Shown: piece by piece, positions 1,056-34,253 of the stretch
Numbering within the stretch: position 1 is the first letter of the stretch
Layout: every line of letters begins with the position of its first letter
IMG/VR virus record: IMGVR_UViG_3300010379_000017
Coordinates: 1-37,064 of that record
From: a virus
Direction: 5' to 3' (one strand)
DNA: 37,064 nt
The notes under the pieces: generated by a model
Databases searched by the model: none
What the model saw: only the letters and a program-made list of their open reading frames with translations
Told to the model about the DNA's origin: nothing
Translations under genes and position numbers: made by a program

Positions 1056-1196
1056 TTGTCATCAGTTTAGCATATACGCTCCTAAGCTCATAGCTAAATT
1101 TTTTTAACACCTAAATAATTGCAAATAAACAGGTTAGAAATCAGGATTAAACGCGCATGGTCCGGGCGTATCAGAATTGGGTGTAGAATCGTACTC
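1056..1196. promoter_or_regulatory. Divergent control region with operator-like repeats
   Basis: AT-rich gap between the XRE gene (leftward) and the kinase gene (rightward), in otherwise GC-rich DNA. TTTAGC at 1066-1071 is mirrored by GCTAAA at 1093-1098. Inside lies the near-palindrome AGCATATACGCT at 1069-1080. Such clustered dyads are typical operators for XRE repressors. No clean sigma-70 promoter could be fixed by eye. Confidence 0.5.
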
Positions 1197-2240
1197 ATGG
1201 GTAGCCCGGCAGAGCAACTCGTTGGCCTCATCCTCGAAGGCGGGTGGACGGTGCGCAAGCGCCTCGAACGGCCACCCGGAAAGAGCGGCGGCTTCTTCTC
1301 TCAGCAATATAGGATCGAGTCGAAGAATGGAAAGAAGGCCTTTTTGAAGGCCCTGGATTATACGGAGGCTTTAATGTCGTCCGATGATCCGGCTCGCGTT
1401 TTGGAGGCGCTGACCGCCGCGTTCAACTACGAGCGCGACCTGCTATCGCAGTGTAAGCAGCACGCCCTAGACCGGGTTGTGAGCGTTATCGCCGATGGAA
1501 AAGTGCGCGTGTCTAGTGCTGTCGACGGAATGGTCCAATACCTCATCTTTGAAGAAGCGGAAGGCGATGCACGGAGTAGTATGGATCTGGGGGCTCGCTT
1601 CGATTTGTCACTCCGGCTGCGGGCACTTCACCACATCGCGGTCGGCCTCAACCAGCTGCACAGCCTGGCGATCGCTCACCAGGATCTCAAACCTTCGAAC
1701 GTCTTGATGTTCAACAATGGTTCAAAGATCGGGGATCTTGGCTGTGCGACTCGCAAAGGCTCTGGCAGTCCGCGTGACCACCTCCCGGTTACCGGTGATC
1801 GAACGTACGCTCCGCCCGAGCTGTTATACCATCATCAACCGTCAGACTGGAATGCAAGAAGGCTCGCGTGCGACTTGTATCTTCTGGGCAGCATGGTCGC
1901 GTATTTCTTCACAGCTCTGGGTATGACGAGGCTTTGGGTACCCGAGTTGCTTCCGATGCACAGACCCGGCATTTGGCCAGGAACGTTTGAGGAGGTGCTC
2001 CCCTTCGTCCGGGATGCAGTTGCGAAAGCAGTGGACACAGTCAAGGTGGCAATCCAAAACCACGTACTTCAGGAAGAGATAGCTCATATCGTACGGGAAT
2101 TGTGTGAGCCGGACCCGTTGATGCGCGGCCACCCTAAGAACCATTCTGGCGTGCCTGGTAACGAATACTCCGTTGAGAGATACATCACGAAATTTGACCT
2201 GCTCGCAAGGCGTGCAACACTGGGTCATTTCAGGGTTTAA
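1197..2240 (+). CDS. Serine/threonine protein kinase-like protein
   Basis: Eukaryotic-type protein kinase of 347 residues, with no membrane segment or C-terminal sensor domain. Visible motifs from this start: a candidate ATP-binding Lys in KKAFLKAL (about 51), a helix-C Glu in NYERDLL (about 79), catalytic loop HQDLKPSN (161-168), DLG in place of DFG (180-182) and the APPE motif (205-208). Asp163, Lys165 and Asn168 are intact, so it is probably active, but the HRD arginine is Gln. ATG 1197 is preferred over the TTG at 1119, which would place the start in the AT-rich control region. It is followed closely by a TPR protein, which may be its substrate, scaffold or sensor. A cargo or defence role is possible but inferred from context only. 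Confidence 0.8.
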   Translation: MGSPAEQLVGLILEGGWTVRKRLERPPGKSGGFFSQQYRIESKNGKKAFLKALDYTEALMSSDDPARVLEALTAAFNYERDLLSQCKQHALDRVVSVIADGKVRVSSAVDGMVQYLIFEEAEGDARSSMDLGARFDLSLRLRALHHIAVGLNQLHSLAIAHQDLKPSNVLMFNNGSKIGDLGCATRKGSGSPRDHLPVTGDRTYAPPELLYHHQPSDWNARRLACDLYLLGSMVAYFFTALGMTRLWVPELLPMHRPGIWPGTFEEVLPFVRDAVAKAVDTVKVAIQNHVLQEEIAHIVRELCEPDPLMRGHPKNHSGVPGNEYSVERYITKFDLLARRATLGHFRV

Positions 2241-3759
2241 GACATTGGCCGGATTCGTCGAGGATAAAGAACGGCGGGCTATTCCAAACTGGCGGGATTA
2301 CCGCAAAGCAGCGGGGTTAGGCGAACTGTACCCCGTGCGGCCCCGAGCCGATCGCCCCTCTAGCAGCGACAGCCTTGACGAGAAGATTCGCGACTGGCAA
2401 GAAAGCCATAAGCTCAGCTCCGCTGCCGAACTTCTCGGCGCTGCTGTCGTCCTGAATCGAGCACAACAGGGTATCGAGCCGGCGAGATTCCTGATATCGT
2501 TAGGCGACCGTGCCCCACGGGCTGTTCGAGAGCTTGCGAAGCGAGTCCTGGAGACTAATGCTGACAATCTCGAAGCTCCTCTAGTGCTGCCCGCAGAGAT
2601 ACACATACTCCGCTCCCGGCTCAGAGACGATCCGAAAAACCCGTTAGCGTGGGTTGATCTTGCACGGAAACACGTGGTTGGCGGGCAGCTACAAAGGGCC
2701 ACGCGGGCCATGAAAGTGGCCGTCGGGCTGGCACCCGACAATCGTTTCGTGGTTCGCTCGGCGGCACGACTATTTGTGCACCTTGGGGAGCCTGAGTACG
2801 CACACGATCTCATACTTCGCACTGCGGCCACGGGATCGGATCCCTGGTTAATGGCCTCCGAAATAGCGGTCGCGTGCGTTGCTGGTCGCACCCCGGAATT
2901 CGTGAAACATGGACTCCGGCTGTTACGCTCTGATCGGTTTCCGGCTTCCCAGACCGCGGAGTTGGCAAGCGCCTTGGCAACGCTAGAATTGTCTGCCGCT
3001 AACTACCGCGGATCTCGAAAGTTGTTCCGGCAGTCCCTCGTTCAACCGAACGCCAATACAGTCGCGCAGGCACGCTGGGCCCAACGCGAAACCGGGATTG
3101 AATTGTCCGATTCTGTACTAAGCACAAATCTGGCGTTTGAAGCTCGCGCCTGGCGGGACTACTATGGGCGCAAATGGAAATCGTCCCTTCAAGAATCCTT
3201 GGAGTGGCTTGAGGACGAGCCATTCTCCAGCCGCCCGGCTACGCTGGCATCTTTTCTGGCGGGTTCGATATTTGAGGACTACAACAGGTCTTCGGATATT
3301 GCTGATCAGGGTCTCGTGGCAAACCCGGACGATCCCGGTCTTCTGAATAATTTGGCATTTGGTTTGGCGAACGCCGGGCGGGTGGAAGAAGCCGATCACT
3401 ATTTGGGCCGGTTGCGGGCGCTGGACGTAAAGGGCCCGGGCGAGGTCCCTGTGCTTGCGACGTCGGGATTGATCCAATTCCGCAAAGGCGATTCCGCAAG
3501 CGGCCGACGACTGTATCTCTCCGCCATTGGAACGGCCGAGAAACATAAACGCTACGACCTCCGCGCTCGGGCCTCTGTGTTTTTGGCCCTGGAGGAAATC
3601 CGGGCTATGTCCCAAGATGCTGCCCGAGCGCGGGTGCGGGCTCTCGAGTGGGCGACAGCTTGCGTCGATGATGACCCAAGCCTGGAACTCCTCTTGAAGC
3701 GTCTGAAACAGGCGAAACCCCCGGTGCTGCCGCGCGACCGACCGGACTCCCGGCGGTGA
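2212..3759 (+). CDS. TPR-repeat protein partnered with the kinase
   Basis: An approximately 515-residue helical protein with several tetratricopeptide-like units. Examples are NPLAWVDLARKHVVGGQLQRA with the following ALAPDN-type turn, the stretch around residue 215 of the same type, and PDDPGLLNNLAFGLANAGRV in the C-terminal half. TPR proteins act as protein-binding scaffolds; no catalytic motif is seen. The frame overlaps the end of the kinase gene. Possible starts are TTG 2173, GTG 2212 and TTG 2245, and none has a good ribosome-binding site; 2212 is a compromise. Translation is probably coupled to the kinase, making a two-gene operon. No terminator lies immediately after it; the next clear one is at 4215. 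Confidence 0.75.
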   Translation: MQHWVISGFKTLAGFVEDKERRAIPNWRDYRKAAGLGELYPVRPRADRPSSSDSLDEKIRDWQESHKLSSAAELLGAAVVLNRAQQGIEPARFLISLGDRAPRAVRELAKRVLETNADNLEAPLVLPAEIHILRSRLRDDPKNPLAWVDLARKHVVGGQLQRATRAMKVAVGLAPDNRFVVRSAARLFVHLGEPEYAHDLILRTAATGSDPWLMASEIAVACVAGRTPEFVKHGLRLLRSDRFPASQTAELASALATLELSAANYRGSRKLFRQSLVQPNANTVAQARWAQRETGIELSDSVLSTNLAFEARAWRDYYGRKWKSSLQESLEWLEDEPFSSRPATLASFLAGSIFEDYNRSSDIADQGLVANPDDPGLLNNLAFGLANAGRVEEADHYLGRLRALDVKGPGEVPVLATSGLIQFRKGDSASGRRLYLSAIGTAEKHKRYDLRARASVFLALEEIRAMSQDAARARVRALEWATACVDDDPSLELLLKRLKQAKPPVLPRDRPDSRR

Positions 3760-4214
3760 CTTCTGGCCGCCATCCTCAATTGGGCGAACCAAGGCGTGGA
3801 CTGGCGTATGGCCGTGAAGGCCTCTGGTGGGGCGAGCGGAGGAGCGCAATACGGTCACAGTGGATTTCGAGTGAAGCCGAGCCGCTGGCTGTTTCAGACA
3901 GTTCCTAGCGAGTCTAGAGCGATCAGTCCCCATAAACGCGCTTGCGTCCGCTGAACCACCTCGCCGTCTCGTCCGCTCATCGGGAGAGCTGCTGTCGTTG
4001 GCCGCGCCGGATTCCTGACGATAACAGCCCTTTGCACCAGCAGCTCGCCGCCGAAGGAAGTTCTGGCCGGAAGTTGGGTCGGGGCAAAAATCCTTCAACG
4101 AATGCCACTGTTCCGTCTCATCGGGTCGTCAACAATAGCCGTTCGCCCGACTCAGCGCAATTAAGTGAACAGCATTGCTTCTAAGCCGCAAAACGGAACC
4201 AAGAGAACCGAGAA
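3760..4214. other. Non-coding gap; no gene recognised
   Basis: About 450 bp with no convincing gene on either strand. The open frames crossing it are antisense to the TPR gene or have Arg/Ser/Pro-rich translations typical of shadows. No tRNA or clear attachment site was found. It could hold an element border, since the gene style changes from cargo to small phage genes just after it, but nothing in the sequence proves this. Confidence 0.4.
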
Positions 4215-4241
4215 GGCCCGGCCGCCGCGCCGGGCTTTTTT
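4215..4241 (+). terminator. Rho-independent terminator
   Basis: Stem GCCCGGC (4216-4222) pairs with GCCGGGC (4229-4235) across loop CGCCGC and is followed by six T (4236-4241). The stem-loop core is repeated in the terminator at 4729-4761. Confidence 0.8.
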
Positions 4242-4276
4242 GTTGTTCAGAGAAACCGGAGAAAAAGGTGCGAATA

Positions 4277-4297
4277 ATGGCGCTGGCCCCGCACTAA
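4277..4297 (+). other. Six-codon mini-ORF upstream of the 4307 gene
   Basis: ATG GCG CTG GCC CCG CAC TAA, preceded by AAAGG about 8 bases upstream and ending 9 bases before the next ATG. It may couple or attenuate translation, or be chance. It is listed because other gene starts in the window also have tiny preceding ORFs. Confidence 0.2.
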
Positions 4298-4306
4298 ATA
4301 AACGGA

Positions 4307-4681
4307 ATGCAAAAACTAGACCGCGAAGCATTGATATTGATAGCCGAGCGCCACGAAGCGGCGCTACGCATGCGCGGGGGGCGCCCGGACCGGTTCCACG
4401 TGGATATGCGGGTATCAAGGCTGGAGACGGACGTCGCGGAGATAGCGCGGGCGCTCGCCGGCCAGGAGGTCGTCGCGCCGGCCGAACCGCCCTGTCATCA
4501 GGGACCGCGGCCTGCGTGGCGCGACGCCTTCCCGATCGGTTGGTGGCTCGCGTTCCCCGGTTCCGAAAAGGTAGACCTGGGCGACAAGCATGCTATGGCG
4601 TGCTTCGAATACCGCGACCACGCTGAGACGTACGTGAAAGACATGTGGCCGGGCATCGGGCACATGGAGCAGAACCTCTGA
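4307..4681 (+). CDS. Small hypothetical protein in a terminator-flanked cassette
   Basis: A 124-residue protein with no recognised domain. The N-terminal third is charged and helical (around AERHEAALRMRGGRPDRF). The C-terminal part has a compact aromatic pattern (FPIGWWLAFPGSEK and AMACFEYRDHAETYVKDMW), which looks like a real globular fold and not a shadow frame. It is alone between two near-identical terminators (4215-4241 and 4729-4761), the usual arrangement of a phage moron. No strong ribosome-binding site is seen before ATG 4307. An alternative frame starting at 4165 has an Arg/Gly/Pro-rich translation and was not accepted. Function unknown. Confidence 0.55.
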   Translation: MQKLDREALILIAERHEAALRMRGGRPDRFHVDMRVSRLETDVAEIARALAGQEVVAPAEPPCHQGPRPAWRDAFPIGWWLAFPGSEKVDLGDKHAMACFEYRDHAETYVKDMWPGIGHMEQNL

Positions 4682-4728
4682 TTTTCCTCCTCCTAAGAAA
4701 AGGCAGCGCTGGTCTGCGATTCTCCTAC

Positions 4729-4761
4729 ACCGCCCGGCCGCCGCGCCGGGCGGTTATTTCT
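4729..4761 (+). terminator. Rho-independent terminator, twin of the one at 4215
   Basis: Stem ACCGCCCGGC (4729-4738) pairs with GCCGGGCGGT (4745-4754), loop CGCCGC, followed by the T-rich TATTTCTT. Positions 4733-4751 match 4217-4235 base for base, so the two terminators share stem core and loop. Confidence 0.8.
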
Positions 4762-4763
4762 TG

Positions 4764-4776
4764 TATCTATTTGAAA
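4764..4776 (+). promoter_or_regulatory. TATCTATTTGAAA motif, copy 1
   Basis: This 13-base AT-rich motif occurs exactly again at 14371-14383 and with two changes at 14447-14459. Here it sits between a terminator and the first gene of the early block, where a promoter or operator is expected. Function is inferred from position. Confidence 0.35.
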
Positions 4777-4790
4777 ACGCGCGCAATAAA

Positions 4791-4853
4791 CATCATCAGA
4801 TTTCTTGCGAAATAACTTGACTGTTCAGCGCGCCAGAGTGATCGATGTGATGT
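4791..4853 (+). repeat. R element, diverged copy R0
   Basis: Leader directly before the 4854 gene. It shares the trailing block around CCAGAGTGAT and the preceding CTTGACT with R3, and its translation in the matching frame retains LD...RQSD as in the other copies. It is shorter and lacks the AAGGAGATAAG ribosome-binding segment. It is the weakest of the four copies. Confidence 0.45.
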
Positions 4854-6488
4854 ATGGAAAACGCATACCGCATACCCGAACGCAACCTCGACGGACTCCA
4901 GAAGCAGCTTGAAAAGCTGAATCGCCGCGCCACCCGCCTGGACGTGACGCCGGTGACGATGCGGGAGACGGGCGAGGAGTTCGAGCTTTGGGCAACCCCG
5001 CGCTGCGAAGACGCCGGGCCGTTCCGGATCAACCTACGGCCACGGGAGACGCTCGCGCAGGCCGAAGACCGCGCGCGCGTTACCTTCCGCGGCCGGTGGC
5101 TGACCTTCCTCCCGCGCCGCTACGTCCTGGTAGTGGTGGCCGGCGAGGCGCCGAAGATCAACGGCTGGTCCTTCGCCGCGGTCCTGCAGCACTTGGAGGG
5201 CGGTAACATCCTGGCGTATGTACCCGGCTGGGAGACGGCGGTTCCTACCAGCTACCGGGAGGCGGAACCATACTGCGACCACTGCCGGACCACCCGCGAA
5301 CGCAAGGACACGTACCTGGTGTGCAGCGATGCCGGAGAGTGGAAGCAGATTGGGCGCTCCTGCCTGCGCGACTTCACTGGCCACAAGGACCCGCAGGCGA
5401 TTGCGGAGTTCGCCGAGCACCTGGCGATGTTCTCGGGTTCCTGCTCCGCGGCCGAGGAGTACGACGACTTCGGCGGCGGCAGCCAATCGCGATGGATCTC
5501 GATGGCGTCCTTCCTGGGCGTGGTTGCCTGGTGCGTCCGGACCGAGGGCTGGGTGAGCCGGAAAGCCGCCAAGGACGCCATGGGCGGGCTGCAGGCTACG
5601 GCCGACCTCGCGATGCATATCCTCTGGCCGGCGCGCAATGCGGAAGACGAAAAACTCGGCAAGGGCCATGCGGAGACGCACACGGACGACGACGACCGCG
5701 TGGCGCGCGAAGCGATCGAGTGGGCCCAGAGCCTGGAGCCGAAGGTCGACGACGACTACCTTTGGAACCTGCGGGTCCTGGCCCACAGCGACGCGATCGA
5801 GATTCGCCAGACCGGCCTGGCCGCATCGATGGTGGCGGCGCACGCCCGCGCGACCGAGCGCGAGCTGGAGCGCCGGCGCCAGGCGGAAGGCGCCAAGAAC
5901 AGCGAGTGGGTCGGCCAGCCCAAAGAGCGAATCGAGACGGACCTGACGCTGGTATCGACCAAGTTCTTCGACAACGACTTCGGCGGAACCAACCTGATGA
6001 TGTTCACGGACCCCGCCGGCAACCGGATCAAGTGGTGGGCCAGCGCGAGCGCCGGATGGGAGCCAGCCATCGGCAGCACCAGCCACGTAAAGGCGACGGT
6101 GAAGGAGCACGCAGAGTACAAGGGCATCAAGGAGACGGTGGTATCCCGCGTCCAGGAGTACGACCCGGCCGCGGCGGCAGCAGCCAAGGCCGCCGCAAAG
6201 GAAGCCGCCAGGGCGCGCGCCAAGGCCAAGCGCCAGCAGGTGGAGTGGTTGTGCCAGGGGTGCCGCAACTTTCGCAACACGGCCGCCGTGACGCCGGCGT
6301 GCTGCCCTTTGTGTGGCAGCCGGCAGTTCGCGCCCGCGGAGCCGGCGTCACGACCAACCCGGACGGCGCGCCAAGCTACTGCTGAATGCCCATGCTGCAC
6401 GGCGACCGTCAAATACACGCCAAGCGCCGATTCCGAAATTACCTGCGGAGACTGCGGCACCATGTTTGGCGTTGAGGTGGCCGCATGA
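4854..6488 (+). CDS. Zinc-ribbon phage protein of unknown function
   Basis: A 544-residue soluble protein with several cysteine clusters that look like zinc-binding sites. The first has Cys141, Cys144, Cys157 and Cys170, around YCDHCRTTRERKDTYLVC and the GRSCLRDF segment. There is an Ala/Lys-rich helical linker near residues 440-460. Two C-terminal zinc ribbons follow, at about 463-490 (CQGC...CPLCGS) and 510-540 (CPCC...CGDCG). Proteins with this first Cys pattern are common and uncharacterised in phages and plasmids. A nucleic-acid-binding role is likely from the ribbons but not shown. It opens the early block after a terminator and the R0 leader. Its stop overlaps the next small ORF (ATGA at 6485-6488). 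Confidence 0.8.
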   Translation: MENAYRIPERNLDGLQKQLEKLNRRATRLDVTPVTMRETGEEFELWATPRCEDAGPFRINLRPRETLAQAEDRARVTFRGRWLTFLPRRYVLVVVAGEAPKINGWSFAAVLQHLEGGNILAYVPGWETAVPTSYREAEPYCDHCRTTRERKDTYLVCSDAGEWKQIGRSCLRDFTGHKDPQAIAEFAEHLAMFSGSCSAAEEYDDFGGGSQSRWISMASFLGVVAWCVRTEGWVSRKAAKDAMGGLQATADLAMHILWPARNAEDEKLGKGHAETHTDDDDRVAREAIEWAQSLEPKVDDDYLWNLRVLAHSDAIEIRQTGLAASMVAAHARATERELERRRQAEGAKNSEWVGQPKERIETDLTLVSTKFFDNDFGGTNLMMFTDPAGNRIKWWASASAGWEPAIGSTSHVKATVKEHAEYKGIKETVVSRVQEYDPAAAAAAKAAAKEAARARAKAKRQQVEWLCQGCRNFRNTAAVTPACCPLCGSRQFAPAEPASRPTRTARQATAECPCCTATVKYTPSADSEITCGDCGTMFGVEVAA

Positions 6489-6595
6489 CCGAGAAGCCAC
6501 CCGTACTGATAGCCATCGCCTTTCCATCGATTAAATCTTTCGAGGACAGGCAGATTTCGCTTGCCCGCACGGGCGACGAGAGTGATGAATGGTGA
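6485..6595 (+). CDS. 36-residue peptide encoded across R1
   Basis: A short ORF starting in an ATGA overlap with the preceding stop and ending at TGA 6593-6595. It carries the motifs SIKSFEDRQIS and a terminal SDEW. The same frame in R2 reads SVKSLNNKHISL with QSDE, and in R3 SSKKSFEAKQN, a stop, then QSDEW. This peptide is therefore the intact version of a sequence present in three leaders. Either it is a real small protein whose 3' end has been copied, or the leader DNA simply reads through. There is no strong ribosome-binding site apart from coupling to the upstream gene. Function unknown. Confidence 0.45.
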   Translation: MTEKPPVLIAIAFPSIKSFEDRQISLARTGDESDEW

Positions 6596-6613
6596 CGTAA
6601 AGGAGATAAGCGG
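6511..6613 (+). repeat. R element, copy R1
   Basis: About 103 bp ending at the ATG of the 6614 gene. It starts with ATCGCC then TTT-CATCG-TTAAATCTTT and ends AGAGTGATGAATGGTGACGT, AAAGGAGATAAGCGG, ATGGCA. The last 40 bases match R3 except for one inserted A before the ribosome-binding site. The GGAG supplies the Shine-Dalgarno of the following gene. Confidence 0.8.
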
Positions 6614-6952
6614 ATGGCAACCCTCGAAACGAAAACGGACGGCCGCAGCAGCCTGATAATCCTGGTCCCGACGCGCGAAGAGGTCGAGAGCCTCCAGGTC
6701 GGCAACCTGGCACTCGACGCCTTCGGACGGATGTCCGAGGTAACCGAGATTTTCGGCCGCGGCAACGACATCAAGGGGCGCGCGTACGTGTGCTACTACA
6801 CCAGATTCGGCGCCAACGGGTCCTGCTCGACCAGCATGAAGGAAGGCGAACTGGTCCGGACGGTGGCCACGAGCGGCCGGTATACCTCAGCCGAACTGGA
6901 CGCCATCGAGCGCCAAATCAACCAGGAGCGCACCGCGGCGCCAGCCGCCTAA
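6614..6952 (+). CDS. Small hypothetical protein following R1
   Basis: A 112-residue protein of unknown function. The start is fixed by AAAGGAG 9-12 bases upstream within the R1 leader. It has an alternating beta-rich core (SLIILVPTREEVESLQVG, then YVCYYTRFG) and a short C-terminal helix with ELDAIERQINQER. No membrane segment or known motif is seen. The N-terminus begins MATLE, and the other R-driven genes also begin MA plus a polar residue, because the leader repeat includes the first codons. It sits between a zinc-ribbon protein and another small zinc protein in the early block. Base composition matches its neighbours. Confidence 0.7.
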   Translation: MATLETKTDGRSSLIILVPTREEVESLQVGNLALDAFGRMSEVTEIFGRGNDIKGRAYVCYYTRFGANGSCSTSMKEGELVRTVATSGRYTSAELDAIERQINQERTAAPAA

Positions 6953-6976
6953 CCCGCGCCAGCACGACTCGCCCGC

Positions 6977-7014
6977 GCCCGCCCGGTACCCGGCGGGCTT
7001 GCCGGCGTGAGGAG
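6977..7014 (+). repeat. H element, copy H1
   Basis: Hairpin GCCCGCC (6977-6983) / GGCGGGC (6992-6998), then CTTGCCGGCGTGAGGAG. The GAGGAG is the ribosome-binding site of the GTG start at 7021. There is no T-tract, so it is not a standard terminator. Confidence 0.8.
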
Positions 7015-7020
7015 TACCGA

Positions 7021-7245
7021 GTGTTGACCGACGAGGGCCGCGAAGCCATCCAGAAATCGAACCGCACGCGCAATATGCGGTGCGGAAACTGCGGCGCCAC
7101 CGCGACCGAGATCGTGGACGGCGACAAGATCGGCGGCCTGCCCGGATTGCAGTACCGCTACTGCGCCGGATGCGGTTGGAGCCGCGCGATTACGAAACGG
7201 ATGAGTCGGCGCGAGATGGTACGGGGCCTACACGGAGCAGAATAA
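7021..7245 (+). CDS. Small zinc-ribbon protein
   Basis: A 74-residue protein starting at GTG 7021, six bases after the GAGGAG of H1. It has two CxxC pairs, Cys21/Cys24 and Cys48/Cys51, framing a beta hairpin (EIVDGDKIGGLPGLQYRY). This is the layout of a single zinc ribbon as found in small phage DNA- or RNA-binding proteins and in transcription-factor-like fragments. The C-terminal tail is basic (RAITKRMSRREM), which fits nucleic-acid contact. Its stop TAA overlaps the next start (TAATG at 7243-7247), so the two genes are coupled. The partner is unknown. Confidence 0.75.
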   Translation: MLTDEGREAIQKSNRTRNMRCGNCGATATEIVDGDKIGGLPGLQYRYCAGCGWSRAITKRMSRREMVRGLHGAE

Positions 7246-7568
7246 TGGAACGCCTGAGACTTCACATCCCGGAACGGCGCAGCACCGACGCGCCAGCGCC
7301 CAACGCGACGCTGTTCGTAGGCGCCAGAATCATCGTGATCGACGAGCGGAACCTACCTGCCCGCCTGGTCCGGTTACTGCCGGCGGCGTACGGCACAGCC
7401 AACCACCCGGACCGCAACGCGGGCGCGTGGGCCGCGTTCGTGGCCACCGCCGATGCGATGGGGCTGCTGTACCCGTGGGGGCCACCGGCAACCGAGCGGG
7501 AACGCCAGGACGCGATCTTACGCCACCACGAACGCCACCTGGCTGGCCATCGCCTTTTCATCGGTTAA
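7245..7568 (+). CDS. Hypothetical protein coupled to the zinc-ribbon gene
   Basis: A 107-residue protein with no known domain. It starts at the ATG that overlaps the stop of the zinc-ribbon gene. The sequence contains a beta segment (LFVGARIIVIDE), a helix with GAWAAFVATADAMGLLYPWG and a basic, His-rich C-terminus (RHHERHLAGHRLF). The last eight codons lie inside the R2 leader, and the TAA is formed within the CATCGGTTAAATC of that repeat. The repeat therefore supplies this gene's stop in one frame while encoding its own conserved peptide in another. Function unknown. Confidence 0.65.
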   Translation: MERLRLHIPERRSTDAPAPNATLFVGARIIVIDERNLPARLVRLLPAAYGTANHPDRNAGAWAAFVATADAMGLLYPWGPPATERERQDAILRHHERHLAGHRLFIG

Positions 7569-7645
7569 ATCTTTGAATAATAAGCACATTTCCCTTGATC
7601 GCGGCGGCGTTCAGAGTGATGAATGTGGTGCAAGGAGATAAGCAG
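7545..7645 (+). repeat. R element, copy R2
   Basis: About 101 bp ending at ATG 7646. It matches R1 strongly at GGCCATCGCCTTTTCATCG and TTAAATCTTT, then at AGAGTGATGAATG and CAAGGAGATAAGC. The middle is diverged. It overlaps the 3' end of the preceding gene. Confidence 0.8.
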
Positions 7646-7951
7646 ATGGCACGGACCACGAAGCACAACAAAACGAACGCGACGCCCGGTTTCACAATCG
7701 AGATCAAAAACGACACCAACCTGGGACTGGCGATGCTGATCGCCGAGGACGAGGAAGGCCACTACGAACCGGTTGGTGTGGTGGTGAGCATCAACGAGGC
7801 GCGCGAGATCGCAGCCAGCAACATGAGCGGACGCCGTAAGGACCTCGAACGCGGCAAGACGCCGATGTGCCCGTACGAGTACAAGGTCTGGGCCACTGGG
7901 CTCGATGGCGACTACCGCGTGGCCGGCACGATCGACGCCGCCAGCGTGTAG
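7646..7951 (+). CDS. Small hypothetical protein following R2
   Basis: A 101-residue protein; ATG 7646 is preceded by AAGGAG in the R2 leader. After a basic N-terminal tail (ARTTKHNKT) it has an alpha/beta pattern: TIEIKNDTNLGLAMLIAED, then VGVVVSINEAREIAASNM and a C-terminal strand pair ending in YRVAGTID. No catalytic motif or membrane segment is seen. Upstream in-frame ATG/GTG codons lie inside the repeat and lack a ribosome-binding site. Function unknown; its position suggests an early accessory gene. Confidence 0.65.
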   Translation: MARTTKHNKTNATPGFTIEIKNDTNLGLAMLIAEDEEGHYEPVGVVVSINEAREIAASNMSGRRKDLERGKTPMCPYEYKVWATGLDGDYRVAGTIDAASV

Positions 7952-7973
7952 CCCGCGCGAAGGCCGCGCCCGC

Positions 7974-8011
7974 GCCCGCCCGGTATAGGCGGGCTTGCTG
8001 CAGTGAAGGAG
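7974..8011 (+). repeat. H element, copy H2
   Basis: GCCCGCC (7974-7980), loop CGGTATA, GGCGGGC (7988-7994), then CTTGCTGCAGTGAAGGAG. The AAGGAG is the ribosome-binding site of ATG 8018. The trailer differs from H1 at three positions only. Confidence 0.8.
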
Positions 8012-8017
8012 AAAGCG

Positions 8018-8461
8018 ATGCACAGGAAAGACGTCGAGATCGGGAAGGTATACACGGCGAAGGTAAGTGGCCGGCTGGTGACCGTCAAGATCACCAAAGA
8101 CCGCGGCACCACCCGGCGGTATGCGTACAACAGCAACTTCAGCACGCGCGAGACGCACACCGGTTGGGACGCCATTAACCAGGATACCGGTCGCCAGGTG
8201 CATATACCAACGGCAGCCCGGTTGCGTGGGGAGTACCGGAAGCCGCGGTGCGGCGCGTGCACGAACTGCCTGGCAATTGTAGCGGAAAAGGTCAAATGGA
8301 CCGGGCGATACCGGGATGCTGTCGACTCCGGCCGGCCGACGTCCCATGACGAAATGGCCACGTTGCGCGAAGGCTGGAAGCAGCGCGTCGCGGAGTTACC
8401 ATGCACCGGAAACGTCATCGCCGTTTCATCGAAGAAATCTTTTGAGGCCAAGCAGAATTGA
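8018..8461 (+). CDS. Hypothetical protein following H2, C-terminus from R3
   Basis: A 147-residue protein starting at ATG 8018, six bases after AAGGAG. The N-terminal 60 residues look like a small beta-barrel (KDVEIGKVYTAKVSGRLVTV, then TGWDAINQDTGRQVHI), reminiscent of modification-reader or SH3-like folds in phage proteins. A CGACTNC cluster follows. The last 15 or so residues (VIAVSSKKSFEAKQN) are encoded by the R3 repeat and resemble the peptide of the 6485 ORF. The C-terminus was therefore probably acquired when the leader repeat was copied here. No function can be named. Confidence 0.65.
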   Translation: MHRKDVEIGKVYTAKVSGRLVTVKITKDRGTTRRYAYNSNFSTRETHTGWDAINQDTGRQVHIPTAARLRGEYRKPRCGACTNCLAIVAEKVKWTGRYRDAVDSGRPTSHDEMATLREGWKQRVAELPCTGNVIAVSSKKSFEAKQN

Positions 8462-8514
8462 CTTGCGTCGCACGGGCACCAGAGTGATGAATGGTGACGT
8501 AAGGAGATAAGCGG
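8414..8514 (+). repeat. R element, copy R3
   Basis: About 101 bp ending at ATG 8515. It shares ATCGCC, TTTCATCG and AAATCTTTTGAGG at the left and AGAGTGATGAATGGTGACGT, AAGGAGATAAGCGG and ATGGCAA at the right with R1. It overlaps the 3' end of the preceding gene. Confidence 0.8.
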
Positions 8515-8748
8515 ATGGCAAACACCAAAAAGCAAGCGACGCGGAACCGGAAACCGACCTTCATCGAGTTGATGGACAGCCTGAGGATCCTTTGCCGCGC
8601 CGAGAAGGCCGGCGCAACCTTCTGTGAGTGGCTGAGCCTCGCGGTCGGCAGCTACGATGACGCGCAGACGTACCTCGCCCAGGTGATCGCCCGGACCGAC
8701 AACCCGGTAGTAGCGATGCTGGCGAAGCAAGCGATGGCCGCGCGCTAG
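8515..8748 (+). CDS. Small hypothetical protein following R3
   Basis: A 77-residue, mostly helical protein with a basic N-terminus (ANTKKQATRNRK). Helices follow around FIELMDSLRILCRAEK and DDAQTYLAQVIART. The start is fixed by AAGGAG in R3. It has no zinc cluster or known domain. A DNA-associated role would fit the charge pattern but is speculative. It is followed by a hairpin at 8766-8786 rather than by an H element. Confidence 0.65.
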   Translation: MANTKKQATRNRKPTFIELMDSLRILCRAEKAGATFCEWLSLAVGSYDDAQTYLAQVIARTDNPVVAMLAKQAMAAR

Positions 8749-8765
8749 AGCGCGCGCCGCGCCCC

Positions 8766-8786
8766 GCCAGGCGGCTCCCGCCTGGC
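8766..8786 (+). other. GC-rich hairpin before the 8843 gene
   Basis: CCAGGCGG (8767-8774) pairs with CCGCCTGG (8778-8785) across a three-base loop. No T-tract follows. It lies where H elements occur at other boundaries but does not share their sequence. It could be an mRNA-stability hairpin or a weak terminator. Confidence 0.5.
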
Positions 8787-8842
8787 CCTACCCGATGAGC
8801 AGGGGCCGAAAACCGTAAGGTTCGTAGGAAAAGGAGACGCAG

Positions 8843-9529
8843 ATGTTCTTTACGATCAGCAGCGAAAACCTGATCGCCAAGTACGACACGTACGAACAGG
8901 CGATCGCCGCGGCGCCGGCCGAGGAAATCTTTCAGACGAGCAAGGAGTTCACGCACATCGTCCTGGAGTGGCCGATTGCGCGGTTCGTGGATGTGTGGAA
9001 TAAGCTTCCGGGCACGACCCCCGTCAGGAAGTTCGAGAACCGCCAGAAGGCCGGCGTCCGGATCTGGAAGGCGATCAACGGCGACACCAGCAACGGTGGT
9101 GGCGAGAAGTATGCCCAACCCCGTAGCGAAGCGGAGAAGGCTGTCGATGTGCTCCTGGCCGAAGACGCCGAGAGCGCCGCGGCGCCCCAGGTACAGGCCA
9201 AGGCCGCCAGCGCCGCGAATACCTCCAAGCAGCCCAAGGCCAAGAAGGAACCGAAGGCGCCCAAGGCCCCCAAGGAGCCGAAAGCCAAGAAAGAGCGTGA
9301 GCCGAAGGCCGAAGGCAGCGCGCCGCGCGAAGGGACAGCCAAGGCCAAGGTGATCGGGATGCTCGGCCGCGCGAACGGCGTGACGCTCGACTCCATCGTC
9401 AACGAGACCGGCTGGCAAAAACACACGGTCCGCGGGTTCATCAGCATCCTGGGCAGCAAGCATGGGATGAAAATCGACAGCAGCAAACGCGAGAGCGACG
9501 GCGCCCGCGTCTACAAACTGGCCGAGTAA
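8843..9529 (+). CDS. DUF3489 domain protein
   Basis: A 228-residue protein with three parts. The N-terminal domain (1 to about 95) includes FDVWNKLPGT-type text around FVDVWNKLPGTTPVRKFENR. A low-complexity Lys/Pro/Ala/Glu linker (about 110-165) is built from repeats of KEPKAPKAPKE type. A C-terminal DUF3489 winged-helix-like domain (about 168-228) contains GVTLDSIVNETGWQKHTVRG and ends in ARVYKLAE. DUF3489 is common in proteobacterial and phage proteins and is thought to bind DNA from its helix-turn-helix-like pattern; its role is not established. ATG 8843 has AAGGAG upstream. The repeated linker codons make this stretch prone to length change. Confidence 0.8.
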   Translation: MFFTISSENLIAKYDTYEQAIAAAPAEEIFQTSKEFTHIVLEWPIARFVDVWNKLPGTTPVRKFENRQKAGVRIWKAINGDTSNGGGEKYAQPRSEAEKAVDVLLAEDAESAAAPQVQAKAASAANTSKQPKAKKEPKAPKAPKEPKAKKEREPKAEGSAPREGTAKAKVIGMLGRANGVTLDSIVNETGWQKHTVRGFISILGSKHGMKIDSSKRESDGARVYKLAE

Positions 9530-9552
9530 CCAGGATGGAATACCCGCCCGCA

Positions 9553-9590
9553 GCCCGCCCGGTAACAGGCGGGCTTGCCGGCGTGAGGAG
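9553..9590 (+). repeat. H element, copy H3
   Basis: GCCCGCC (9553-9559), loop CGGTAACA, GGCGGGC (9568-9574), then CTTGCCGGCGTGAGGAG. Here the GAGGAG precedes ATG 9592, which opens only the tiny frame ATG GCG GCG TAA. The recombinase ATG lies 16 bases further on. Confidence 0.8.
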
Positions 9591-9607
9591 CATGGCGGCG
9601 TAAACCC

Positions 9608-10471
9608 ATGACAATCATAAACGCTTTGGGGTACATCCGCGTCTCGACCGACAGCCAGCGCGATCACGGCATCTCACTCCAGGCGCAGACCGCCAAGATT
9701 CGAGCGCAGGCTAAGGCATCCGGCCTGCGTCTCTCGGATATCGTTTCTGATGCCGGTATCAGCGGGAAATCGCTATCCCGCCCCGGAGTCCAGCGAATCA
9801 TGAGCGAGGTCGCCATCGGGAAAATCGGCGCTGTGGTGATCTGGAAGCTTGATCGGTTGACGCGGTCGGTCCGGGATCTACTCGACCTCCTCGACCTTCT
9901 CGCGAAGAACAACGTCCGGTTGATCAGCATCACAGAATCGCTAGATACGGACTCTGCCGTTGGCCGTATGGTAATGACGATCCTCGGCGCAGTCGCGCAG
10001 ATGGAGCGAGAACAGACCGGAGAACGAATTCGCTTGGCGGCGCAGCACATGCGAGACATCGGCCGCGTCTGGGGCGCGCCGCCGTTCGGATTCCGCGCTC
10101 GGGGGAAAAAGCTCGTTCGCAACGAGAGAGAGGTTGCCGTGTGCCGGATAGCCGTACGCCTCCGGGCCGCCGGGAAAACCTACGAGCAGATCGCCGTACA
10201 TCTCAACCACCAGCGAGAGTATCGTCCGCGGGGCGGCGGTAAGTGGCTGCACCAACATGCCCATCGAATGGTGACAAAGCACGCCGCTAAACTCGGGATC
10301 AAGATGCCGGCAACGCGACAGCCGGCGCCACGCACGACAGCCAAGGGATACCGTATCGACGGACCCGCGCACAGGAAGGCGCGCATGAAGGTGCCAGCGT
10401 GGAGACGAAAGGAGATAGCCAAACTTGGAGCGATGGGGCGCGCCCGGGCCCGTGCAAAGGCCATTCCGTAG
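9608..10471 (+). CDS. Serine recombinase, candidate integrase
   Basis: A resolvase/invertase-type site-specific recombinase of 287 residues. The catalytic Ser is Ser13 in YIRVSTDSQ. The DRLTRS motif (82-87) supplies the conserved arginines, and AVAQMEREQTGERI marks the long helix E. A recombinase-type DNA-binding region follows (about 150-220, starting at PPFGF), and the C-terminus is very basic. It is smaller than the large phage serine integrases (450-700 residues) because it lacks the zinc-ribbon and coiled-coil part. It may therefore be a resolvase-like transposon recombinase or a minimal integrase. It is the only recombinase in the window. Its start has no own strong ribosome-binding site; it may be coupled to the 3-codon ORF after H3. 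Confidence 0.9.
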   Translation: MTIINALGYIRVSTDSQRDHGISLQAQTAKIRAQAKASGLRLSDIVSDAGISGKSLSRPGVQRIMSEVAIGKIGAVVIWKLDRLTRSVRDLLDLLDLLAKNNVRLISITESLDTDSAVGRMVMTILGAVAQMEREQTGERIRLAAQHMRDIGRVWGAPPFGFRARGKKLVRNEREVAVCRIAVRLRAAGKTYEQIAVHLNHQREYRPRGGGKWLHQHAHRMVTKHAAKLGIKMPATRQPAPRTTAKGYRIDGPAHRKARMKVPAWRRKEIAKLGAMGRARARAKAIP

Positions 10472-10498
10472 GCAAAGCAACCCGACCTTCTTGACCGC

Positions 10499-10536
10499 GC
10501 CCGCCCGGTACAGGCGGGCTTGCCGGCGTGAAGGAG
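10499..10536 (+). repeat. H element, copy H4
   Basis: GCCCGCC (10499-10505), loop CGGTACA, GGCGGGC (10513-10519), then CTTGCCGGCGTGAAGGAG. AAGGAGG is the ribosome-binding site of ATG 10545. Confidence 0.8.
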
Positions 10537-10544
10537 GACAATTG

Positions 10545-10754
10545 ATGCGCACTGTCAGATTCACGCGCACAACAACCGATTGGGCGGACGTCTCCGTCGA
10601 GATTCCGGATGGCGCCACAAACGATGAGATCGCGGACGCCGCGCTCGCGTCGCTTCACGAGAAGGACCCAGGATGGGAGCCCGTCGAGCGCTGTTTCGAC
10701 GAGTGGGAAAACTACGAGATCCTGGCCGACGAGGAGGAGGGGGCCGAATCGTGA
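10545..10754 (+). CDS. Small acidic hypothetical protein
   Basis: A 69-residue protein starting at ATG 10545, seven bases after AAGGAGG of H4. It has a beta segment (TTDWADVSVEIPDG) followed by a helix (ATNDEIADAALASLHEK), and the C-terminus is strongly acidic (ADEEEGAES). The size and charge resemble small early phage proteins such as protein mimics of DNA or anti-defence factors, but no family is recognised and this is only a resemblance. The stop overlaps the GTG of the following frame (GTGA at 10751-10754). Confidence 0.7.
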   Translation: MRTVRFTRTTTDWADVSVEIPDGATNDEIADAALASLHEKDPGWEPVERCFDEWENYEILADEEEGAES

Positions 10755-11116
10755 CGTGGAACAAATCGATGGAGATGCGGTTACTCGCGATTCGTTCGGA
10801 AGTAAGGAAAACTGCAGACTACTGCCAACATGACACTTTACCCTCAATGCAGATGTTCAGCTCGCTATTTGTCGCCAAAGCCGCCGCTCGTGAAATTCGA
10901 ACTGCCCATGACGCAGCAGCCCCGGTACCGGTTTTCGAAGAGGTAGAGCTTGGGATGGAACGTCCCGCCCGCGGCCGCCTTCCACAGATAAGATATGATC
11001 CAACGACTTCGACCCTATCGAGCATCGTAACACTGGATGCACCAGTTCTTCACTTGGCCGCCCCACCAGGGCGCACCCTGACCATCCGTGATTGTGCCGT
11101 CCGGCTTCACCGTTAA
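10751..11116 (+). CDS. Possible gene with an overrun 3' end
   Basis: A 121-codon frame starting at GTG in a GTGA overlap with the preceding stop. Residues 1 to about 75 look protein-like, with helical text SMEMRLLAIRSEVRKTADYC and a segment MQMFSSLFVAKAAAREIRTAH. The last third is antisense to the end of the reverse-strand peptidase gene (overlap 11015-11116) and reads as low-quality sequence. The real gene may have been cut by insertion of the reverse-strand island and extended into foreign DNA. Low confidence. Confidence 0.4.
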   Translation: MTWNKSMEMRLLAIRSEVRKTADYCQHDTLPSMQMFSSLFVAKAAAREIRTAHDAAAPVPVFEEVELGMERPARGRLPQIRYDPTTSTLSSIVTLDAPVLHLAAPPGRTLTIRDCAVRLHR

Positions 11117-14654: not shown

Positions 14655-14687
14655 GGTAAGTGCAAAAACCCCAGTATTGCAGTTACC
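14655..14687 (+). repeat. 33-bp dyad element, copy A
   Basis: GGTAAGTGCAA (14655-14665), spacer AAACCCCAGTA, TTGCAGTTACC (14677-14687). One mismatch between the arms. It lies about 190 bp upstream of the first forward gene of the late block. Confidence 0.7.
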
Positions 14688-15722: not shown

Positions 15723-16126
15723 TGGGCTTTCGGGCGAGTCGTCCAATAGGAAGGATTGCCGATTCGGCGGATGGGAGTTCGAATCTCCCCTTGTCCACCA
15801 AGAAACGGGCCGGCGTAGCTCAATCGGCAGAGCAGCGGTTTTGTAAATCGCACGTTGGAGGTTCGAAGCCTCCCGCCGGCTCCAAACCCCAACCCACATT
15901 CGACTGGGGCGAGATCGACGAACTACGGCAGCAGATCACTAGCGACGCGCCCGCGCCGGCCGGTTCGTTCACGATCAACAACTACGCCGCGAAGTACCGC
16001 GTACCGTACCAGACCGCAGTCGGGCAGCTTCGCCGTCTTACTGCATCCGGCAGGCTGCAGACCGGACACTTCAGCGTGCCGGACGGACGCGGACGAAAGC
16101 GGATGAAGAGGATGTTTTGGGCATGA
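15722..16126 (+). CDS. Winged-helix DNA-binding protein, start uncertain
   Basis: The credible protein is the last 75 or so residues, from DWGEIDELRQQI on. They contain a helix-turn-helix pattern (SFTINNYAAKYRVPYQTAVG then LRRLTASGRLQ) and a basic tail (GRGRKRMKRMFW), like small phage winged-helix regulators. No ATG, GTG or TTG exists in frame between the end of tRNA-Thr (15884) and the middle of the domain. The only open start is ATG 15722, which would translate both tRNA genes. The gene may have lost its start when the tRNAs arrived, or may use a rare ATC or ATT start. The coordinates give the open frame; the true start is probably near 15890. Confidence 0.5.
   Translation: MGFRASRPIGRIADSADGSSNLPLSTKKRAGVAQSAEQRFCKSHVGGSKPPAGSKPQPTFDWGEIDELRQQITSDAPAPAGSFTINNYAAKYRVPYQTAVGQLRRLTASGRLQTGHFSVPDGRGRKRMKRMFWA
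15732..15800 (+). tRNA. tRNA-like gene lacking six anticodon-loop bases
   Basis: Every arm of a tRNA is present. Acceptor GGGCGAG (15732-15738) pairs with CTTGTCC (15790-15796) using two G-U pairs. The D-arm is GTCC/GGAT with loop AATAGGAA. The T-arm is GGGAG-TTCGAAT-CTCCC, followed by an encoded ACCA. The anticodon stem GCCGA/TCGGC is perfect, but only one base (15763) lies between its strands where seven are normal. The length is 69 instead of 75, so the anticodon is gone. The D-arm style resembles Gln and Glu tRNAs. It is probably a pseudo-tRNA, or a tRNA-shaped RNA with another use. A 3-bp stem with a 5-base loop is the only way to fold the arm. Confidence 0.55.
15809..15884 (+). tRNA. 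tRNA-Thr(TGT)
   Basis: A 76-base complete tRNA. Acceptor GCCGGCG/CGCCGGC; D-arm GCTC-AATCGGCA-GAGC; anticodon stem GCGGT/ATCGC with loop TTTGTAA, anticodon TGT at 15842-15844; variable loop ACGTT; T-arm GGAGG-TTCGAAG-CCTCC; discriminator T and encoded CCA. It reads ACA codons. It is eight bases from the preceding tRNA-like gene, so the two are probably co-transcribed with the late operon. Confidence 0.93.
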
Positions 16127-20928: not shown

Positions 20929-22335
20929 ATGGTTAATGGCGGCGTTAAGGTCCCGTCCGAGGTCGTGATGTGGGCTGTCGAGCGACTCCTGGCGTACGCC
21001 AGGAATTCACGGACGCACTCTGCGGAGCAGGTCGCCCAAGTCGCCGACAGTATCAAGGAGTTCGGTTGGACGTCTCCGATTCTGGTTGGCGCGGACGGCG
21101 TGATCATTGCAGGCCACGCGCGGCTCCTGGCCGCCAGACAACTCGGCATGACCGAGGTGCCCGTGATCGTCCTGGACTACCTTACGCCAGCACAGCGTCG
21201 CGCGCTCGTCATTGCGGACAACAAGCTGGCACTCAATGCCGGGTGGGACGAGGAGATGCTGCGCGCAGAGCTGGCATCGCTCCAGGAGGACGATTTTAAC
21301 CTGGATGTGGTGGGCTTCTCAGACGAGGAGCTTGCTGCGCTGCTGGCGCCCGAAGACGCGCCGCCGGCCGGGGGCGACACGCCCGCGGAAGAATCTGTGC
21401 CGGATGCGCCTGCCACGCCGGTCACACAACGGGGAGACGTGTGGCTGATCGGAAAGCACCGGCTTATCTGCGGCGACTGCCGCGACGCCGCGAGCGTGGC
21501 GACGCTCCTGGACGGCGCGATGGTGAACGTGGCGATCACGTCGCCGCCGTACGCGACACAGCGGGAGTACGACAAGTCCAGCGGGTTTAAGCCGATCCCT
21601 CCGGATGAGTACGTAGAGTGGTACCGCGCGGTCGCAGCCGGCATCGAGGCGGTCCTTGCGCCCGATGGCTCCTACTTCCTGAACATCAAAGAGCACGCCG
21701 AAGATGGCGAGCGGAACCTGTACGTGAAGGATCTCGTTATCGCTCACCGGCGCCAGTGGGGATGGCGGTTTGTGGATGAATTCTGTTGGCGGAACACGGC
21801 AAACGGCGTGCCTGGCAAATGGAGTAACCGCTTCAAGAATGCGTGGGAGCCGGTGTTCCACTTCTCGAAGGGGAAGGCGATCAAGTTCCGGCCGCTCGCT
21901 GCCGGCCATAGATCGGACGACGTTGTCGTTTACTCTCCGGATAATCCTTCTGCGCCGAGCGGGTCCGGCCTGTTGGGTTGCGGAGCCGACAAGGTCGCAG
22001 GCATCGCGTGGCCCAGCAACGTGGTCGAGGTCAAAGCGGAGGGTGGCCAGGGCGAGCACTCCGCGCCCTACCCCCGTGCTCTCGTCGAGTTCTTCTTGAA
22101 GGCGTTTTCTGACGCTGGCGAGGTGGTCTTCGACCCGTTTATGGGAAGCGGCACCACAATGGCGGCGGCGCACACACTTGGCCGCGTCGGTTACGGCACG
22201 GAGATCTCACCCGGTTACTGCGATGTGATCCTGCTGCGGATGATGGCACTCACCGGCACGGAGCCAACGCTGTCCGCGACCAACCGCACGTTCAAGCAGA
22301 CCGCCGCGGCGCGCGGTATCGAGGACAAAGGGTAA
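20929..22335 (+). CDS. ParB-domain / DNA methyltransferase fusion (SPPY type)
   Basis: A 468-residue protein. The N-terminal ParB/Srx-like domain (about 15-105) includes GHARLLAARQLGMTEVPV and IADNKLALNAGW. A linker follows, then an SAM-dependent amino-methyltransferase (about 165-450) of beta-class order: TSPPY first (204-208) and FDPFMGSGTT later (401-410). SPPY is most often seen in N4-cytosine enzymes, so 4mC is the likely product, though 6mA cannot be excluded. No restriction enzyme is nearby, so it is an orphan methylase. The ParB domain is close at DNA level to that of the second fusion at 25301. The terminase small-subunit gene starts in its stop codon. Confidence 0.85.
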   Translation: MVNGGVKVPSEVVMWAVERLLAYARNSRTHSAEQVAQVADSIKEFGWTSPILVGADGVIIAGHARLLAARQLGMTEVPVIVLDYLTPAQRRALVIADNKLALNAGWDEEMLRAELASLQEDDFNLDVVGFSDEELAALLAPEDAPPAGGDTPAEESVPDAPATPVTQRGDVWLIGKHRLICGDCRDAASVATLLDGAMVNVAITSPPYATQREYDKSSGFKPIPPDEYVEWYRAVAAGIEAVLAPDGSYFLNIKEHAEDGERNLYVKDLVIAHRRQWGWRFVDEFCWRNTANGVPGKWSNRFKNAWEPVFHFSKGKAIKFRPLAAGHRSDDVVVYSPDNPSAPSGSGLLGCGADKVAGIAWPSNVVEVKAEGGQGEHSAPYPRALVEFFLKAFSDAGEVVFDPFMGSGTTMAAAHTLGRVGYGTEISPGYCDVILLRMMALTGTEPTLSATNRTFKQTAAARGIEDKG

Positions 22336-25105: not shown

Positions 25106-25118
25106 GAGCCACCGATTA

Positions 25119-25147
25119 TAAGTGCAAATAACTCAGTATTGCACTTA
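25119..25147 (+). repeat. 33-bp dyad element, copy B
   Basis: TAAGTGCAA (25119-25127), spacer ATAACTCAGTA, TTGCACTTA (25139-25147). It is in the same orientation as the other copies. It lies in the 195-bp gap between the zinc gene and the second methylase. Confidence 0.7.
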
Positions 25148-25300
25148 CTTCCGATGTTAGATTGAAGGCGTAAAGACGTGCGCCCGCCGTCCCATAGACA
25201 CCAAATCGCACCAAGCACTCACCCTCTTTAAATGGGAACACTCCAATCAGAACGCTGGCTCTCCGATGCAATTACGGGAACCACATGGGGGCACATCTAG

Positions 25301-26539
25301 GTGTCGGTTATCCTTACAATAACCAACCGGTCTATAAGCGGATTGGTTCCTTACGCCCGGAATTCCCGGACGCACTCTCCGGAGCAGGTTGCCCAGGTAG
25401 CGGCCAGCATAAAGGAGTTCGGATTCGTAAATCCAATTCTAGTTGGGGTTGACGGTGTAATCATCGCCGGCCACGCTCGCCTGGCCGCGGCGCGCAAGCT
25501 CGGAATGACCGAGGTCCCTGTCATAGTGCTCGGCCATCTCAGTGAAGCGCAACGCCGCGCCCTGGTCATTGCCGACAACAAGCTGGCGCTCAATGCCGGA
25601 TGGGACGACGCGATGCTCAAATCCGAGATCGCGGCACTGGCCGATGAGCAGTTGGACCTACTTGACGTGATCGGTTTCTCCGACGAGGAACTCAAGGCAC
25701 TGCAGGCCGACCAACCGAACCCGGAGGTCAATCAGGAAAACGAGGACGCCGCGCCGGCCAAGTCCGAACAACAGGCAGTCACCCAACGGGGGGACCTGTG
25801 GATACTGGGCAAGCACCGCTTGCTGTGTGGCGACGCAACCAACGCCGAGGACGTCAAGCGAGTACTCGACGGCGACGTCGCCGATATCGTTTGGACCGAC
25901 CCTCCATACAACGTGGATTACGTGGGCAAGACAGCCAAGAAACTGACTATCGGAAACGATGCGCTCGGTGGCAAGTTCTACGACTTCCTGTTCGACGCCC
26001 TTTCAAACCTCCTTCTCTCGTGCCGCGGCGCCATCTATGTCTGCATGTCCTCGTCCGAGCTGCATACCTTGTACAAGGCTTTCGTGGACGCGGGCGGCCA
26101 CTGGTCGACGTTCATCATCTGGGCGAAGCATCATTTCACTCTCGGACGGTCCGACTACCAGCGCATGTACGAGCCGATCCTGTACGGTTGGCGCGAGGGC
26201 TCCTCGCACTACTGGTGTGGCGACCGTAATCAGGGAGACGTATGGCCGGTGAAGCGGCCGATGGCGAACGTCGATCACCCCACCAAAAAACCGGTGGAGC
26301 TTGTGCAGAAGGCGATCGAGAACAGCAGCCAACTTGGAGACATCGTACTCGACACATTTGCCGGCAGTGGGTCGACCATGGTGGCCTGCGAAAAGACCGG
26401 ACGCGCCGCCCGCCTGATCGAGTACGACCCAGGTTACTGCGACGTGATCGTCAAGCATTGGCAGGGGCTCACCGGCGGTCGCGCCGTCACCGTCGACGGG
26501 CGCGCGTTCGAGATGCCGGCGGAACAGGTGGCAGCGTAG
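25301..26539 (+). CDS. ParB-domain / DNA methyltransferase fusion (DPPY type)
   Basis: A 412-residue paralogue of the 20929 protein. The ParB domain (about 10-100) is nearly the same (GHARLAAARKLGMTEVPVIV, IADNKLALNAGW). The methylase domain carries TDPPY (199-203) and FAGSGS near residue 350. DPPY is the motif of N6-adenine enzymes, so the two fusions probably place different marks. No restriction partner is seen. GTG 25301 is the start; no strong ribosome-binding site precedes it. Its stop overlaps the gpW gene (TAGTG), so it is at the head of the structural operon. Confidence 0.85.
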   Translation: MSVILTITNRSISGLVPYARNSRTHSPEQVAQVAASIKEFGFVNPILVGVDGVIIAGHARLAAARKLGMTEVPVIVLGHLSEAQRRALVIADNKLALNAGWDDAMLKSEIAALADEQLDLLDVIGFSDEELKALQADQPNPEVNQENEDAAPAKSEQQAVTQRGDLWILGKHRLLCGDATNAEDVKRVLDGDVADIVWTDPPYNVDYVGKTAKKLTIGNDALGGKFYDFLFDALSNLLLSCRGAIYVCMSSSELHTLYKAFVDAGGHWSTFIIWAKHHFTLGRSDYQRMYEPILYGWREGSSHYWCGDRNQGDVWPVKRPMANVDHPTKKPVELVQKAIENSSQLGDIVLDTFAGSGSTMVACEKTGRAARLIEYDPGYCDVIVKHWQGLTGGRAVTVDGRAFEMPAEQVAA

Positions 26540-34225: not shown

Positions 34226-34253
34226 GTGCAAAAACCTCTGAATTGCACTTACT
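34221..34253 (+). repeat. 33-bp dyad element, copy C
   Basis: AGTAAGTGCAA (34221-34231), spacer AAACCTCTGAA, TTGCACTTACT (34243-34253). The arms are perfect over 11 bp. It overlaps the stop of the tail tube gene and lies 26 bases upstream of the chaperone-slot gene. TTGCAC with TTATAG 18 bases further also looks like a promoter. Confidence 0.8.

Follow-up and report, generated by a model that had tools for sequence, protein, structure and literature searches.

Leader copies before unrelated small genes of a virus genome are very probably phage promoters with a conserved bipartite core

Four copies of a leader (R1-R4), each ending at a start codon, were found in a viral sequence 37,064 bp long (61% G+C), here called the window, and we consider it very probable that they are phage promoters. 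Judged from sequence comparison, the right half of the element would be a bipartite promoter from which RNA starts 35-36 nt after a TTG, and the left block would be an optional site for a regulator. The leader is thus most likely a mainly transcriptional element that comes with a ribosome-binding site.

The right part of the window holds terminase, portal, capsid-protease and minor-tail genes, while an XRE repressor and an ImmA-like peptidase lie at its left end and a serine recombinase gene at 9608-10471. Known RNA families in the window are tRNAs and nothing else, and a tandem pair of tRNA-like matches occurs at 15732-15884, one of them a tRNA-Thr by ARAGORN. Several other features of this phage deserve mention in their own right. 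Adjoining the repressor, a Ser/Thr protein-kinase-like gene is followed by a TPR-protein gene (1119-3759), and the pair may have an accessory or defence role. At 20929-22335 and 25301-26539 the phage has two diverged genes of ParB-like/DNA methyltransferases, in a family also present in all six clostridial carriers of the leader core that were compared. Three palindromic repeats (GTAAGTGCAA...TTGCACTTAC; 14656-14686, 25118-25148 and 34222-34252), spaced about 10 kb apart, are possible operators or terminators, and a search of seven related phages that tolerated up to 6 mismatches did not find them.

The initial annotation had described a leader of about 100 bp copied before three genes and ending at the start codon, and this is confirmed by the coordinates: R1 (6511-6613), R2 (7545-7645) and R3 (8414-8514), on the plus strand like R4, its terminator and the genes behind the four copies, are followed immediately by ATGs at 6614, 7646 and 8515. 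In an ungapped comparison with R1 covering 80 bp, R2 shows 78% identity and R3 74%; by BLAST against R1 over about 105 bp the values are 78% (E 2.6e-18) and 86% (E 2.9e-29). The reading frames before R2 and R3 run with their 3' ends into the leader, and so these two copies are not purely intergenic. Within R1, a left block (6514-6540; 25/27 match to the block of R2) stands 47 nt upstream of the core TTGCCC-N17-GATGAA (6561-6589), which is followed by a Shine-Dalgarno AAGGAG (6600-6605) and by A1 (6614-6952; 112 aa), a protein with no Pfam match and no homologue among the other leader genes. R2 has the reference left block (7548-7574), again 47 nt upstream of the TTG, the core TTGATC-N17-GATGAA (7595-7623), AAGGAG at 7632-7637 and then A2 (7646-7951; 101 aa), and R3 has a left block with a 23/27 match at the same distance (8416-8442), the core TTGCGT-N17-GATGAA (8463-8491), AAGGAG at 8501-8506 and A3 (8515-8748; 77 aa, no Pfam match over the cut-off).

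A weaker copy had also been proposed at 4791-4853, and it proves to be a real, diverged fourth one. R4 ends at the ATG at 4854 and keeps TTG-N17-AGTGAT from 4817, with neither a left block nor a Shine-Dalgarno site. A weight matrix trained on 40 instances, all from contigs other than the window, gives 46.3, 48.2, 48.2 and 21.8 bits for R1 to R4; the next-best site in the window scores -7.4, and the maximum over ten Markov-randomised windows is 0.6. Likewise, AGAGTGATGAATG with up to 2 mismatches matches the window four times against 0.36 expected, a number reached in none of 100 shuffles. R4 looked weak because it is of a leaderless type, with TTGACT-N17-GATCGA at 4817-4845 and the ATG at +37 from the TTG. 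The gene behind it, predicted to be transcribed from R4, encodes a 544-aa protein (4854-6488) with no Pfam match over the cut-off, for which a search for viral relatives gave none.

The window also contains a second intergenic repeat (6970-7019, 7966-8011, 9546-9591 and 10491-10536), a GC-rich hairpin (CGCCCGCCCGGTANNNGGCGGGC) followed by TTGCNGNCGTGARGGAG as the ribosome-binding site for the next gene of the unit. Three further copies occur in the phage G017, where one is fused directly to an R element.

When the spacing was left free and a site needed no more than AGTGATNNAT and, further on, a signal resembling a ribosome-binding site, a TTG preceded AGTGAT by exactly 17 bp in 32 of the 33 sites (25/26 in contigs selected through a protein or a record, 7/7 in phage records from Clostridia); a further count gave 15 of 15. 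The pattern TTG-N17-AGTGATNNAT matches 27 times over twelve acidobacterial phage records, on a single strand within each, and the reversed control pattern does not match at all. Among 54 distinct instances, start codons preceded by a Shine-Dalgarno lie 50-55 bases (33 instances) or 67-79 bases from the TTG, those without one lie at 36, 37 or 39 bases (n = 7), and none fall at 40-49. These distance classes fit TTG as the -35 element, GATGAA as the -10 element and RNA that begins at +35/36, part of the genes being leaderless. The right half would be a sigma-type promoter, CTTG and GATGAAT separated by 17 bp, with a conserved GAGT immediately before the -10. By analogy with the leaderless class, RNA is predicted to start near 6596, 7630 and 8498 in R1, R2 and R3, which would place their Shine-Dalgarno sequences close to the very 5' end of the message, while R4 would drive a leaderless message that begins near 4852.

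Through its copy, each small gene or short gene run would have a transcription start separate from those of the genes around it, and the surroundings of the copies in related phages are in keeping with this. Of 43 distinct copies, 17 directly follow a terminator-like hairpin that ends in a T-rich tail, whereas such a hairpin precedes 13 of 860 randomly chosen positions and 2 of the 189 other open reading frames with a Shine-Dalgarno in the same contigs (1-1.5%). In the window, R4 sits behind an intrinsic terminator at 4729-4754 (a 10-pair stem with 9 GC pairs and a T-rich tail); R1-R3 have no such terminator. The clearest case is contig L042, with six consecutive terminator-promoter-gene units in which different small genes alternate with near-identical terminator-promoter sequence. 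In these units each gene needs a promoter downstream of the terminator, and the core is the conserved sequence at that place.

The genes behind R1-R3 are indeed not alike, as had been claimed. Comparisons of A2 with A3 and of A1 with A3 gave no meaningful alignment; A1 and A2 give a local alignment of 22 bits that a profile of 15 A2 homologues does not support, A1 scoring -1.7 bits on it, a level reached by 1616 of 2000 A1 shuffles. Homology of the downstream genes as the source of the repeats was rejected on these comparisons. Related genomes have the leader too, in front of other genes: in acidobacterial phages, the proteins encoded behind the promoter fall into 20 unrelated clusters, namely A2 (19 members, the commonest), DUF3489 (13), two smaller families and 16 singletons. 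A2 homologues were found in 26 viral contigs, nearly all with the core upstream where the leader region is covered, in both leaderless and Shine-Dalgarno forms. The structural model of A2 is beta-beta-alpha-beta-beta (pLDDT 88.9) and gave no significant match to known folds. The A2 and DUF3489 genes are candidates for phage functions that require a promoter of their own. One of the singletons, a small gene at L092:85-280 behind the core, looks like a HicA-type toxin when its sequence is read by eye; a HicA/B-like pair is located at an ESAS in the mycobacteriophage Adephagia (PMC11373665).

Conservation of the block continues through the Shine-Dalgarno into the first codons, and residues 2-9 are rich in K/T/N/Q (52%, against 20% later), from which it appears that translation initiation is probably also under selection. 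The initial annotation had suggested that the leaders may tune translation, and the Shine-Dalgarno in most copies accords with that part of the suggestion. That the block is primarily a translation-initiation or RNA-protein binding element within a longer message, as first proposed for SAS, seems highly improbable to us, even though it takes in the Shine-Dalgarno and runs on into the coding sequence. Versions that lack a Shine-Dalgarno keep TTG-N17-GATGAA and have their ATG at the expected start of the message, terminators lie directly upstream of copies, and it is hard to see what a TTG placed 50 nt ahead of the ATG would do in translation. An RNA structure formed by the leader was considered and rejected: RNAalifold on 14 aligned leaders found no consensus pair, and although the left block can pair imperfectly with the region around the start in R1 and R2, it does not in R3. 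Known RNA families at ten related loci were tRNAs alone. These observations favour a promoter.

It had further been suggested that the elements are recombination handles for swapping small genes, which would make their regulatory content secondary. The same leader before 20 unrelated protein clusters, the six single-gene units of L042 between near-identical sequences, and the R element of G017 that directly follows the Shine-Dalgarno of another repeat with no intervening gene are all compatible with such exchange. However, no pair of genomes with identical flanks and a swapped gene was found, the bipartite form, fixed spacing and phase to the start codon are conservation of a promoter type, and swapping could be a by-product of promoters, as described for T4 PeSLs; we therefore regard this explanation as unlikely. 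That the block is the operator of a repressor, overlapping an ordinary sigma-70 promoter, would suit the recombinase and early genes, which are usually repressed in a prophage, and the XRE repressor and ImmA-like peptidase of the window, but there is no sigma-70 -10 in the right place, the core is common to phages of two phyla, whereas repressor operators diverge quickly between phages, and it contains no short-spaced inverted repeat, all of which makes an operator quite unlikely as the explanation of the core.

Having preferred a promoter for the right half, we consider the left block separately. It comprises 27 bp (CATCGCCTTTTCATCGGTTAAATCTTT) with two CATCG repeats 11 bp apart, and nine promoters, spread over five contigs, carry it with 18 or more of the 27 positions matching, against at most 14/27 elsewhere. 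In eight phage records, all six matches of at least 19/27 stand 47 nt upstream of a TTG; five of the cores concerned are intact, and the sixth, which belongs to the G017/L015 phage, is diverged. Its fixed phase, at approximately -82 to -56, and its paired CATCG repeats are what a DNA-binding regulator would need, and the block is probably an optional operator, at which either an activator or a repressor might bind.

The pattern CTTG-17 free bases-AGTGATGNATG-AGGAG occurs in 54 stretches in IMG/VR. A stricter pattern, searched in one genome per species for 84,980 species, gave 20 stretches, in Lachnospiraceae and other Clostridia or in Acidobacteriota (Solibacter, Sulfopaludibacter, Bryobacterales, Terriglobia). 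As strict matches of the core are confined to these two groups, a phage of soil Acidobacteriota is the probable source of the window. In clostridial records the element precedes large serine-recombinase genes, a family beginning MEIRYNVTG-like, and small genes. Among sampled genomes, 2 of 396 Acidobacteriota and 15 of 391 Clostridia have a match and the controls have none, although several of these matches look like chance occurrences in coding sequence; many of the related records are fragments. A host regulon was rejected as an explanation, since strict sites number no more than 1-3 per genome in eight carrier hosts and the sites inspected are mostly before phage-type or recombinase genes. 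A possible exception is seen in clostridial loci (L116, L117, L119 and L130-L134, at position 1500) with several core copies per genome, preceding a ribbon-helix-helix-like gene (VRAKITTTIEEALL...) with variable sequence upstream.

What reads the -10 box is a testable question, posed by a near-invariant core with a non-sigma-70 -10 in the mobile elements of two phyla. The -35 TTG and the 17-bp spacing agree with housekeeping sigma-70, whereas the -10, GATGAA, is not TATAAT-like, and a sigma-70 promoter scan of 3800-10800 found none. We know of no sigma-factor consensus that matches GATGAAT preceded by GAGT. A sigma factor encoded by the phage was considered as a candidate reader: a sigma-70 region-4 protein is present in several clostridial phages and in G022 (L105), whereas neither the window nor any further acidobacterial record in the set, some of them incomplete, has such a domain that scores over the cut-off. 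When acidobacterial and clostridial carriers were compared for a common regulator, the most widely shared families were a ParB-methyltransferase and recombinases or virion proteins, all of which are common in phages. The reader may be a factor of the mobile element or of the host. It is tempting to speculate, and we hold it to be a real possibility though short of an even one, that these promoters form a class with a -10 of their own (GAGTGATGAAT/GAGTGATGTAT, 17 bp from TTG), that mobile elements of Acidobacteriota and Clostridia use almost exclusively and whose reader would be a sigma factor, an activator or a modified RNA polymerase not yet described. In practice, the core offers a usable rule for locating transcription starts and single-gene units in acidobacterial phages, and ties those starts to the promoters of large serine recombinases and another conserved family in clostridial prophages.

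Among the papers listed by a full-text literature search, which covered few subscription journals, none contains or describes the core; the matches of the search came at least largely from the short CTTGCTATTT. In function the element is like the mycobacteriophage ESAS or the T4 PeSL, and it is unrelated to them in sequence. The comparison first drawn, with the SAS/ESAS of cluster K mycobacteriophages (PMC3203893), is a fair one as to function: in both, repeated leaders stand before genes of many families (20 clusters here) in a non-structural region, with the ribosome-binding region adjoining. ESAS are now described as containing SigA-like promoters, with hexamers 17-18 bp apart and a further conserved repeat beside the conserved start region (PMC11373665). 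In contrast to these, the -10 here is GATGAA and the hosts are different, and the extra site consists of direct CATCG repeats at a fixed distance rather than 17-bp inverted repeats. The SAS 13-bp GGGATAGGAGCCC has two 2-mismatch matches in the window, at chance level and none of them at R1-R4, and an imperfect 17-bp inverted repeat with a short spacer, as in ESAS, is absent from all four copies; inverted arms are found in R1 and R2 only, 11-14 nt long and 77-85 nt apart.

Promoters of the sigma-70 family with an alternative -10 share the -35/-10 geometry and the 17-bp spacer, and their RNA begins some 35 nt past the -35, as predicted here, but the strict sites described here are almost only in mobile elements. 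The T4-type PeSL, as presented in accounts citing Arbiol 2010 and Comeau 2014 (PMC4503421, PMC3950731), is a terminator stem-loop followed by a promoter, placed between genes. Part of the copies resemble PeSLs, so described: at 17 of 43 copies in relatives and at R4, a terminator is directly followed by the predicted promoter, and in the variable region this arrangement recurs between unrelated small genes, most plainly in L042, L057 and L005. The element differs from PeSLs in that the PeSL promoter of those accounts is an early, host-type sigma-70 promoter, whereas here the -10 is GATGAA with no sigma-70 match, and in that R1-R3 of the window carry the left block in the place of the terminator.
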